The notes beneath the pieces are model-generated. The model was not told the DNA's origin, ran no database searches, and was given only the letters and a program-made list of their open reading frames with translations. This document shows positions 27,907 to 34,273 of a stretch of 34,273 bases of DNA, piece by piece. Source of the stretch: Bacteroidota bacterium (GTDB lineage: Bacteria > Bacteroidota > Ignavibacteria > Palsa-1295); contig JAUZOQ010000030.1 of the NCBI GenBank assembly GCA_030706385.1, positions 1-34,273 on the forward strand, read 5' to 3'. Both the position numbers and the translations under genes were made by a program. Every line of letters starts with the position of its first letter. The stretch's first letter is position 1.

Positions 27907-29559
27907 CTATATTGATGCCAGGTATTCGTGTAAGCTTCTTTCTGAGTTGAGCAGAAGTTTCTTACGAATCCGGTAACGATGATTCTCAATGTTTCTATCC
28001 GTAACGTAGAGAAGTTTCGCTATGTCGGTTGTCGTAAGACCGAGACGAAGCATGGTGCAGACTTTGTTTTCTGTTCCGGTCAGTGTAGGAAATTTCTCCT
28101 TAAGCCTTGATTGAAAGAACGGATGTACTGCTTGAAATTGCTCTTCAAATTCCTCCCACTTAGTCTTTACTTCAGTTGCCGACTTTAAGCGTTCTTTGAT
28201 ATCGCGAATCAGAGGATCGTTTGCAGGAGAACGCCGTATAATAGCCCGAAGATCGTCACGAAATTGTGTCAGTGATTCCGTCTGCATGATCAGATGCCGT
28301 GTTTTTTCCGTCAGCTCCCGCTCCTTATATTCCAATTCAATCCGCAACTCATCGGAGCGCTGTCGCTCCTGAGTTATTTCCATTTTCTTCATTTCGCATT
28401 CCTCCTGCAATTCGATAAATTGGATTCGGGTTTCCAGTAACTGCTCTCTTTGCTTTACAAAGTGTTCATTATAGAGTTCAAGATACTTCAGCGCATTGGG
28501 TGCATCATTGGCAAGTTTCGAAGTTTCATACATCATGCGGTATGTGTGCTCCTCAAGATAATCATACCTACCCCGACGGAGAAGCTTTAGCGCTTGCTTC
28601 GCAGCGGTGACAGCCCGCTCAACATCGCCTCGCTCGATATACATTTCGCACGCAATTCCCCAGGCATTGAGCAGGAGAGGAGCGCCTTGCGAAGATTCAA
28701 ATACACCTATAGCACTGGTGATCGCTTCCTCGGCCTCGGAATATCGCATCTGGTGCATAAACAGCTTGCCTTTGCAGAGAGCGAGCGAACCCTTCTCGTC
28801 TTCATGCAAAAGGTTCTCATGTTCGGAAATATTCCGAATGTATTCCTCTGCCTCTTTATTTTTCTTGGCTTCTACGAGGATCGTAACTAACCTGATCTGA
28901 GCCTTGAGAATACTGGCCAGTCGATTTGACTTTTTCTGAACAGTGAGGTACTGATGCGCATATTTTTCAGCCTGAGTGAGTTTTTGTCTTGTCAGGAAAA
29001 GCTCAGAAAGCTTGAACAGAATTTTTCCTTCGATACTGTGGTATCCGTTTTGTTGCGCCTGGGTTAAGGAATGATGAAAATATCTTAACGCATCGTCATC
29101 GGAAGAATACCTCTGCGAGACGGAGCCGAGGACATAGTTGCAATAACATACATTGTATGAAGCATTAACCTTTTCTGCTCTTGCCGTCGTCTCAAGGGCA
29201 AGCGAATATGCCTCTTTCAGTTTTTGATCCCAGAGATGAAGATTGGCTTCGGCAGACATACAATCTAATTCGAGGTCCAAGAGTCCCAACTTTCGTGCAA
29301 TTTCGGCTGCCTTCGAATTTAACTCTTGTGCCTTTGGGATTTCGCGCCTGAATTCATGGGCACGTGATTGATAATAGAGACTCCTTGCCATGCCTTCCGA
29401 CCATTGGACTTTTTGCGATGCATCATGAATGTGGCCTATCTCGACTTCCATAGCATCGAGCCATCCCGATTTGCGGAATTCCTTCTTGATCTGCTCTAGT
29501 TGCGTTCGAAGTGTTTTCTTGCTTTCCATTATGTAGTAATCCGCGGGTTGATCAGGCAT
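27907..29559 (-). CDS. TPR-containing LuxR-type HTH transcriptional regulator
   Basis: The protein has 550 residues. The N-terminal two-thirds (about residues 60-370) is a chain of TPR-like helix pairs (ALRYFHHSLTQAQQNGYHS, LTQAEKYAHQYLTVQKKSN, VERAVTAAKQALKLLRRG). A charged coiled coil follows at about 370-435 (QLLETRIQFIELQEECEMKK). A segment starting W468EEFEEQF leads to a LuxR/GerE-type HTH at about 489-550: FPTLTGTENKVCTMLRLGLTTTDIAKLL and DRNIENHRYRIRKKL. No membrane segment or receiver domain is present, so it is probably a soluble sensor-regulator using TPRs to sense a partner. The start at 29559 has GGGAG upstream, but inside a hairpin. Its promoter carries a 23-bp palindromic element. 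Confidence 0.9.
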   Translation of the reverse strand: MPDQPADYYIMESKKTLRTQLEQIKKEFRKSGWLDAMEVEIGHIHDASQKVQWSEGMARSLYYQSRAHEFRREIPKAQELNSKAAEIARKLGLLDLELDCMSAEANLHLWDQKLKEAYSLALETTARAEKVNASYNVCYCNYVLGSVSQRYSSDDDALRYFHHSLTQAQQNGYHSIEGKILFKLSELFLTRQKLTQAEKYAHQYLTVQKKSNRLASILKAQIRLVTILVEAKKNKEAEEYIRNISEHENLLHEDEKGSLALCKGKLFMHQMRYSEAEEAITSAIGVFESSQGAPLLLNAWGIACEMYIERGDVERAVTAAKQALKLLRRGRYDYLEEHTYRMMYETSKLANDAPNALKYLELYNEHFVKQREQLLETRIQFIELQEECEMKKMEITQERQRSDELRIELEYKERELTEKTRHLIMQTESLTQFRDDLRAIIRRSPANDPLIRDIKERLKSATEVKTKWEEFEEQFQAVHPFFQSRLKEKFPTLTGTENKVCTMLRLGLTTTDIAKLLYVTDRNIENHRYRIRKKLLLNSERSLHEYLASI

Positions 29560-29605: not shown

Positions 29606-29656
29606 CAAATTTACGGGATTCTATAGGTGATCCAGTACTCTAAGAGTACTCTATTT
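29606..29656 (-). promoter_or_regulatory. Promoter module A (drives the TPR-LuxR gene)
   Basis: On the minus strand a 23-bp element (29656 to 29634) ends in the 17-bp palindrome AGTACTCT-T-AGAGTACT, followed by a 20-nt spacer and the -7 box TAAATTTG (29613-29606). No TTG -33 box is present; the palindrome occupies that place, centred about 41 nt before the estimated start near 29601, a class II activator position. Confidence 0.75.
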
Positions 29657-29664
29657 TTCCTTTG

Positions 29665-29715
29665 AAATAGAGTACTCTTAGAGTAATGGATTTAGGTTGC
29701 TGAGCCGTAATTTTG
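29665..29715 (+). promoter_or_regulatory. Promoter module B (drives the structured intergenic RNA)
   Basis: This is the same 23-bp element as module A (29665-29687, one mismatch in the last half-site: AGAGTAAT for AGAGTACT). It is followed by exactly 20 nt and the -7 box TAATTTTG (29708-29715). The spacer starts GGAT and ends CCG, as in module A. Predicted start is near 29720. Confidence 0.7.
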
Positions 29716-29718
29716 TGC

Positions 29719-29943
29719 ATGATTACTTTGCATTACACAACAACTGCACTGTCCGCCACGCATTAGTTGCCCTCATAGATACCCTGCCACGGAAAAAGAG
29801 GCAACACCTCCCAGGCACGGCAAATTGCCTGGGAGTACTGTTTTACCCCTCAAAAATCAGGCAATTCCGGCTCAAAACCGGAATTGTCTGGTCAGTCTTA
29901 GAAATGCTTCTGACTAAGATTGTGCAAATCTTACAAGGTAAGA
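29719..29943 (+). ncRNA. Candidate structured leader RNA or small RNA with alternative hairpins
   Basis: Downstream of promoter B no protein gene is recognisable, but the strand is packed with inverted repeats. P1-P2 is a perfect 10-bp stem CTCCCAGGCA / TGCCTGGGAG (29808-29817, 29826-29835), followed by TACTGTTTTA. P3-P4 is a 14-bp stem with two G-U pairs (29857-29870, 29878-29891). P2 can instead pair with P3 (AATTGCCTG 29823-29831 with CAGGCAATT 29858-29866). Further overlapping stems lie at 29893-29922, 29915-29933 and 29929-29943. A 15-codon Thr-rich ORF starts at 29719 (MITLHYTTTALSATH). This is the layout of an attenuator or switchable RNA. Boundaries are estimates. Confidence 0.5.
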
Positions 29944-29951
29944 ATATCTTA

Positions 29952-30002
29952 AAATAGAGTACTCTTAGAGTACTCCAATCGCAATTTATCGTAGTATCTT
30001 TG
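29952..30002 (+). promoter_or_regulatory. Promoter module C (drives the short HTH gene)
   Basis: This is a perfect copy of the 23-bp element (29952-29974, palindrome centre 29966), then exactly 20 nt and the -7 box TATCTTTG (29995-30002). The estimated start near 30007 puts the palindrome centre at about -41. It lies 29 nt before the ATG of the HTH gene at 30032. Confidence 0.75.
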
Positions 30003-30031
30003 TACCGTGTTATTGATGATGTCCACAGACT

Positions 30032-30448
30032 ATGCAAGATCCCCATGCATTTGATAAGTCTGCCTCTCGTGCCCAGAAACGAGACAGATTTTTGAGACAC
30101 AAAAACCGAAGCGCCCCTGGTCCCACCTCAGGAGCCTCATTACAGAATCATACAGCTGAGCAGGAAGTGGTGCGCCGTTCGCGCGCAAAGCGCCACCGGA
30201 CGTGGGATCAGATCGATCGCGAATCCGGAGGTATTTATGCTCTCTATCTCCGCGATCTCGCTCGGCGATTTCCAACACTTTCGCCTATGGAGCTTCGCAT
30301 CAGTGCTCTGATCAAAGGAATGCTTAGGAGCTGGGAAATAAGCGAGCGCCTTGCCATCGAAGAAAAGACTGTAGAAAACCATCGTACCAACATTCGACGA
30401 AAACTCGGACTTGAAGTAAGTCAGAATCTACAGAAGCACCTACTCTAA
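30032..30448 (+). CDS. Short LuxR-type HTH DNA-binding protein
   Basis: The protein has 138 residues. The N-terminal roughly 57 residues are basic and disordered (many Arg, Lys, Ser). From W58, WDQIDRESGGIYALYLRDLARRFPTLSPMELRISALI runs into a LuxR/GerE HTH with KTVENHRTNIRRKLG. This block aligns with W468 onward of the TPR regulator (FPTL[ST], ENHR, IR[RK]KL). So it looks like a stripped version of the same family without TPRs. No receiver domain is present. Its promoter carries module C. The start has no Shine-Dalgarno. It could be a repressor, activator or antagonist of the TPR regulator; which is not known. Confidence 0.85.
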   Translation: MQDPHAFDKSASRAQKRDRFLRHKNRSAPGPTSGASLQNHTAEQEVVRRSRAKRHRTWDQIDRESGGIYALYLRDLARRFPTLSPMELRISALIKGMLRSWEISERLAIEEKTVENHRTNIRRKLGLEVSQNLQKHLL

Positions 30449-30612: not shown

Positions 30613-31404
30613 ATGGCCAAGAAAACTGCTGCTAGCCAACCAAAGATCCGTCGGATAAGCCGCTACGGATGGGCACCTGATCTGCCCGACCATCGTGATC
30701 TGATGTATGCTGCACCTATGGCAATCATCCGAAAACTTCCACCGAAAGTCGATCTTCGATCAAAATGTCCGCCAGTCTATGATCAGGGACAGATCGGAAG
30801 CTGCACGGCTCACGCCATTGCCGGAGCCATCCATTTCGATGAGAAAAAAGAAAAGCTTTCGAAGATCATCATGCCTTCTCGTTTATTCATTTATTACAAC
30901 GAGCGTGTTATTGAAGGAAGTACTTCCAGCGATAGTGGCGCACAGATCCGCGATGGAATTAAGACCGTGACAAAGCAAGGCTACTGTTCTGAATCAGATT
31001 GGCCGTACAACGTCACCAAAGTTACTATTAAGCCGCCTAAGCCTGCGTACACTGACGCAGCCTCACATCGAGTGACACAATATCAGCGACTCGTGCAGAA
31101 TTTGCAGCAATTGAAGGGCTGTCTTGCAAGTGGATATCCGTTCGCATTTGGCTTTACCGTCTACGAGAGTTTTGAAAGTCCGGCAGTCGCAAAGACGGGC
31201 ATTGGCACGATGCCGAAGGGAAACGAATCGGTTGTAGGTGGCCACGCTGTTCTGGCTGTCGGTTACGACGATGCCAAGCAAGTCTTCATTATCCGCAACT
31301 CCTGGGGCCCGAAATGGGGCATGAAGGGCTACTTCACTCTGCCATACACTTACCTAATGGAGAGAAATCTCTCAAGCGATTGTTGGACGATCAGGACGGT
31401 ATAG
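30613..31404 (+). CDS. Papain-like cysteine protease (C1A family), cytoplasmic
   Basis: The protein has 263 residues. YGWAPDLPDHRDLMYAAP (18-35) is a common N-terminal block of bacterial C1A proteases. PKVDLRSKCPPVYDQGQIGSC holds the oxyanion Gln58 and the nucleophile C64. GGHAVLAVGYDD holds H211, and IIRNSWGPKWGMKGYF holds N229. The catalytic triad is intact. There is no signal peptide and no inhibitory prodomain, so it appears to act in the cytoplasm unless exported by another route. Next are a lipoprotein (20 bp on) and a small hydrophobic protein (3 bp after that), probably one transcript. The substrate is unknown. Confidence 0.93.
   Translation: MAKKTAASQPKIRRISRYGWAPDLPDHRDLMYAAPMAIIRKLPPKVDLRSKCPPVYDQGQIGSCTAHAIAGAIHFDEKKEKLSKIIMPSRLFIYYNERVIEGSTSSDSGAQIRDGIKTVTKQGYCSESDWPYNVTKVTIKPPKPAYTDAASHRVTQYQRLVQNLQQLKGCLASGYPFAFGFTVYESFESPAVAKTGIGTMPKGNESVVGGHAVLAVGYDDAKQVFIIRNSWGPKWGMKGYFTLPYTYLMERNLSSDCWTIRTV

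Positions 31405-33150: not shown

Positions 33151-34273
<1,123 letters not shown>

Follow-up and report, generated by a model that had tools for sequence, protein, structure and literature searches.

LuxR/GerE-type activators control known regulons through a palindromic box near position -42, as in lux-box class II promoters and the inverted-repeat sites of the NarL/ComA type, and a palindromic site at -41 over a degenerate -33 element is the working position of class II activators of the LuxR family. The locus described here lies in a window of 34,273 nt (the whole stretch of DNA that was analysed) and resembles such regulons in that a palindromic site is centred 41 bp upstream over -33, beside genes encoding GerE-domain proteins. 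Unlike in those regulons, the promoters are of the Bacteroidota sigma-A type and the box was found in this genome only; to our knowledge its sequence matches no known LuxR/GerE-type site.

The predicted transcript of one of these promoters, promoter B, carries a row of hairpins whose first four arms (P1 to P4) display the 1-2, 3-4 and 2-3 complementarity of trp/thr-type attenuators. In contrast to these, hairpin 3-4 is no terminator on the plus strand, the 2-3 pairing is never competitive, and the downstream gene encodes a regulator instead of being a biosynthesis gene. GibS of Bacteroides thetaiotaomicron, a conserved RNA of about 145 nt with a presumed terminator that was confirmed by Northern blot (PMC7366714), is comparable insofar as the candidate RNA is likewise intergenic, with its own promoter (by consensus) and a predicted structure, but differs in that the latter is without conservation in relatives and without a clear intrinsic terminator. 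The promoter-bearing segment also lies between inverted repeats, as in the Bacteroides invertible promoters IVp-I and IVp-II (PMC4747536), whereas the repeats found here are boxes at fixed spacing and the scanned window proteins include no recombinase.

A common box at four promoters

Across the 3.5-Mb genome, four copies of the palindrome TACTCTTAGAGTA were located, with centres at 29642, 29679 and 29966 in the window and, on contig C140, near 53997 (Table 1). In the window, these promoters belong to the gene of a TPR protein with a C-terminal GerE domain (TPR-LuxR), to the hairpin RNA (promoter B) and to a stand-alone GerE-domain gene (short HTH gene). At 4/4 sites, 28 bases separate the central base of the box from a perfect TAnnTTTG, always oriented towards a gene start or the hairpin RNA. 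This motif is the Bacteroidota -7 element mapped at -12 to -5 in Flavobacterium (PMC9723704), and by setting it to these positions start sites were predicted that lie exactly 41 bp downstream of the box centre at all three window promoters. Promoter B, as proposed in the initial annotation, is real by consensus. As TAnnTTTG has a frequency of 0.0014 per base in upstream regions of the sampled contigs, three further matches at one offset (~3e-9) are not due to chance. An AAATAG flank is present 5′ of the box at all four sites; most of the 22 bp from box to -7 element diverge, so the promoters are not simply recent duplicates of a whole promoter.

The genome holds no further box site at up to two mismatches and one at three mismatches, and an exact copy was found in 0/390 other genomes of the class. 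Searching for the box together with the promoter pattern over 257 Gb of other genomes returned six scattered matches in unrelated taxa. Neither the examined relatives of the short HTH gene nor the examined paralogues of TPR-LuxR have the box in their promoters; palindromes upstream of such paralogues at C81, C100 and C137 resemble terminators that belong to the genes before them. Two of the window boxes, with centres 37 bp apart, face each other within 29630-29691, where they form a near-perfect 27-bp inverted repeat (8-bp gap, 96% complementary) that would give a very strong hairpin if single-stranded.

Table 1. Features of the locus and of the fourth box site; start sites are predicted from the -7 elements.
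Feature	Position	Strand	Details
TPR protein with C-terminal GerE (LuxR) HTH domain (TPR-LuxR)	27907..29559	-	550 aa; Pfam; divergent; candidate regulator
TPR-LuxR promoter, -7 element TAAATTTG	29606..29613	-	predicted start about 29601
TPR-LuxR promoter, box	29636..29648	-	centre 29642
Promoter B, box TACTCTTAGAGTA	29673..29685	+	centre 29679
Promoter B, -7 element TAATTTTG	29708..29715	+	predicted start about 29720
Predicted transcript from promoter B	29719..29943	+	~45 nt unpaired at 5′ side, then row of independent hairpins; from fold z and promoter consensus
Hairpin P1-P2	29808..29835	+	perfect 10 bp; weak U-tail TACTGTTTTA
Hairpin P3-P4	29856..29892	+	arms 29858-29870/29878-29890; 15 pairs; no U-tract on plus strand, terminator-like on minus
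Hairpin 4	29893..29922	+	9 bp, CAGTCTTAG/CTAAGATTG
Small hairpin	29929..29943	+	6 bp, TCTTAC/GTAAGA; weak stem 29915-29933 competes with it
Short HTH promoter, box	29960..29972	+	centre 29966
Short HTH promoter, -7 element TATCTTTG	29995..30002	+	predicted start about 30007
GerE-domain (LuxR HTH) protein (short HTH gene)	30032..30448	+	138 aa; Pfam
C140 gene promoter	G000:C140:53961-54003 (box near 53997)	minus	-7 element TAGTTTTG
Fourth box gene	contig C140	minus	427 aa, predicted secreted; YCF48/BNR repeats; T9SS sorting domain just below Pfam cut-off

The hairpin row downstream of promoter B

The 225 nt from 29719 to 29943 fold with -70.4 kcal/mol, compared to -50.8 ± 4.5 kcal/mol for shuffled versions (z -4.32), and 0/200 shuffles reached the same stability. 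Perfect hairpins of at least 9 bp (loops 3-12) are scarce in this genome, with only 39 in the about 250 kb of sampled contigs from which the background statistics were drawn, and two of these fall within 80 nt in this region. All of the pairings listed in the initial annotation were recovered: P1-P2 forms 10 bp with no mismatch (29808-29817/29826-29835), P2 and P3 are perfectly complementary over 9 nt (29823-29831/29858-29866), and the three minor stems (29893-29922, 29915-29933 and 29929-29943) are present and overlap each other. P3-P4 is a strong stem as described, its length being 13 columns at 92% complementarity, or 15 pairs with G-U and flanks.

The further proposal that these hairpins are mutually exclusive did not withstand the folding check with alternative structures that had been suggested along with it. 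Equilibrium pair probabilities for the full length are 0.95-1.0 for P1-P2, 0.99-1.0 for P3-P4 and 0.000 for P2-P3, and the latter does not exceed 0.0016 at any of the sampled transcript lengths from 29836 to 29938. Forcing the P2-P3 helix incurs a penalty of 16.3 kcal/mol, and blocking P1 leaves P3-P4 in place with P2-P3 still absent, showing that P1-P2 and P3-P4 fold independently, side by side. The order of transcription is also at odds with an attenuator, as the P1-P2 tail has already been made when P3 is transcribed, so that P3 cannot rescue termination at P1-P2 as an antiterminator would. A two-state switch or attenuator is not supported for 29719-29943.

The complementarity of P2 and P3 likewise exceeds ordinary chance, as a match of at least 9 nt of this type is found in only 0.07% of ordered pairs among other hairpins from the ~250 kb sampled. 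It arises here because both hairpins share one stem sequence, CAGGCA[ATT]/[AAT]TGCCTG (CAGGCA/TGCCTG plus AATT), and duplication or repetition of a stem motif is enough to account for the complementarity, with no switching required. The hairpin sequence itself is single copy in the genome, where only the box recurs; a dispersed repeat of the REP or MITE type was thereby ruled out for the hairpins.

Scanning for terminator patterns flagged P1-P2 on the plus strand (tail TACTGTTTTA) and P3-P4 on the minus strand (tail CCTGATTTTT), with four sites in the scanned region versus 1.2 ± 0.8 in shuffles, and the two matches, opposite in polarity, converge near 29846-29848. Their tails reach U-scores of 1.7 and 2.1, respectively, compared to 4.5-5.0 for the best terminators of this genome; the P1-P2 tail, described at the outset as weakly terminator-like, matches the pattern and is poor by the standard of this genome. 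Directly after P3-P4 the plus strand reads CAGTCTTAG, which contains no U-tract. Pattern scan and U-scores yielded no convincing plus-strand terminator between 29720 and 30032, which leaves the 3′ end of the transcript undefined and makes run-on into the short HTH gene possible. Read leftwards (29848-29890, minus strand), P3-P4 is terminator-like with its tail CCTGATTTTT, and neither a leftward gene nor a consensus promoter was seen to its right.

An 86-codon frame runs through the hairpins, opening at a TTG 5′ of the predicted start and holding no usable ATG; a coding gene was rejected here on its near-zero codon score together with the lack of any Pfam match or credible relative. A 15-codon Thr-rich ORF had also been placed at the start site. 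With its ATG at 29719-29721 and the predicted start at about 29720, this ATG would lie at or before the start, and only a leaderless mRNA would allow translation of the ORF. Transcripts beginning in this way are uncommon in Bacteroidota; in B. thetaiotaomicron, 5′ UTRs shorter than 10 nt make up about 3.7% of the total (PMC7366714).

DNA comparison revealed no homologue of the RNA in 12 family genomes or in phages and plasmids. Rfam gave no match at gathering score; relaxing the thresholds brought up nothing beyond miRNA-like matches of low score, which fell almost entirely on the operator palindrome. With a single-sequence covariance model only chance-level matches were obtained in 118 other genomes; the best of them (E 0.008 per genome, weak full-length) was rejected, being a terminator-like hairpin with which an unrelated gene ends. 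The hairpin pattern had 10 scattered matches in viral contigs. With no homologous regions found to compare, neither conservation nor covariation in P1-P2 and P3-P4 lends support to a function of the RNA.

Explanations for the transcript

With somewhat more confidence than doubt, we read the locus as encoding a structured, probably non-coding RNA that belongs to a LuxR-type regulon of four promoters and whose hairpins are independent and form no two-state switch. Promoter B would give rise to an RNA that starts near 29720 and forms one hairpin after another, each independent of the others, and a dimeric LuxR/GerE-type activator on the box, its centre at -41 over the usual -33 position, would contact RNA polymerase. 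The adjacent TPR-LuxR protein would be the likeliest activator, acting on the gene that encodes it, on the RNA, on the short HTH gene and on the gene of the secreted BNR/T9SS protein on another contig. We infer that the box serves activation and is bound by the TPR-LuxR protein (or by the short HTH protein); it might instead serve repression from this position. The RNA would presumably be a stable product acting in trans, and a stand-alone RNA is slightly favoured by the promoter of its own with the common box, the strong structure and a reading frame that scores like non-coding DNA.

Its main rival takes the same stretch for a long structured 5′ leader, with promoter B and the HTH promoter in tandem for one HTH mRNA whose stability or translation the hairpins affect. 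The lack of a good plus-strand terminator from 29720 to 30032 fits this reading, as does the fact that both promoters bear the same box and point at the same gene. However, a separate promoter lies about 25 nt 5′ of the start of the HTH gene, which makes the leader dispensable, and no comparable structured leader was seen at relatives of the HTH gene; we consider a leader rather unlikely. That same downstream promoter also weighs against an attenuator or switch governing read-through into the HTH gene, a role initially suggested for the hairpins. Since the HTH gene has a perfect -7 element and a box of its own 3′ of all hairpins, read-through control is unnecessary. The rarity of the 9-nt P2:P3 match between unrelated hairpins speaks for an attenuator, but with a P2-P3 helix that is far costlier and unreached even with P1 blocked, a P3-P4 hairpin that has no U-tract on the plus strand and a P3 made later than the P1-P2 tail, this explanation is very improbable.

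The hairpins might also be weak bidirectional terminators, P1-P2 acting on the plus and P3-P4 on the minus strand, that insulate neighbouring units from each other and carry no function as RNA. The meeting of terminator patterns of opposite polarity is in line with this, but neither tail is strong by the standard of this genome, nothing leftward (neither gene nor consensus promoter) was seen to the right, and promoter B would be left with nothing to express, so that we hold an insulator to be improbable. Least probable of all is an invertible promoter segment as in Bacteroides fragilis. A perfect 24-bp inverted repeat (29634-29657 and 29951-29974) does flank the promoter-bearing stretch, and Bacteroidota do possess systems of this kind (PMC4747536); its two copies, however, are oppositely oriented promoter boxes, each fixed to a -7 element outside the segment, and when the 19 larger window proteins were scanned with Pfam, none proved to be a recombinase.

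Returning to a non-coding RNA, we consider it improbable, though conceivable, that this RNA, as a member of a lineage-specific LuxR-type regulon placed between two GerE regulators, feeds back on one of them, for instance through binding to the TPR protein or base-pairing with the HTH mRNA. The outcome would be a compact feedback loop of RNA and protein in a Bacteroidota lineage that has been little studied. Predicted sRNA-mRNA duplexes with the start regions of the regulon's own genes were no better than background. The unpaired linker CTCAAAAATC between P1-P2 and P3-P4 (29849-29858) is a perfect 10-nt complement of 30087-30096 in the HTH coding sequence, a match at about chance level, and is a possible pairing site for the HTH mRNA.

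The candidate regulon and its genes

The main value of the locus lies in the regulon rather than in the hairpins, as the four identical boxes constitute a small, directly testable candidate regulon for a TPR-LuxR regulator. This class has many paralogues in these genomes, and a limited literature search found no characterised target site for any TPR-LuxR regulator. The structured RNA would be a non-coding member of the regulon, and rejecting the attenuator or switch clears away a misleading lead. So far, the regulon has been seen in this genome only.

The TPR-LuxR protein is the first candidate regulator because its own promoter bears the box; for its TPR part, a search by sequence found no solved relative. 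In the family, the -7 element of related short HTH genes comes without the box, also in a gene from the same genus with 61% identity over 75 residues, which mildly argues against the short HTH protein as a conserved box binder. Stand-alone short GerE-domain proteins have multiplied in the family and at times occur two to three close together (G011:C288, G008:C7, G003:C16).

On contig C140, the BNR/YCF48 gene is followed on the same strand by a gene for a 1820-aa T9SS protein. In the window, a papain-family (C1) cysteine protease gene (30613-31404) lies directly 3′ of the short HTH gene and precedes two small ORFs without a Pfam match. The contig ends within a 23S rRNA gene (33151-34273), so that the assembly is broken at an rRNA operon.
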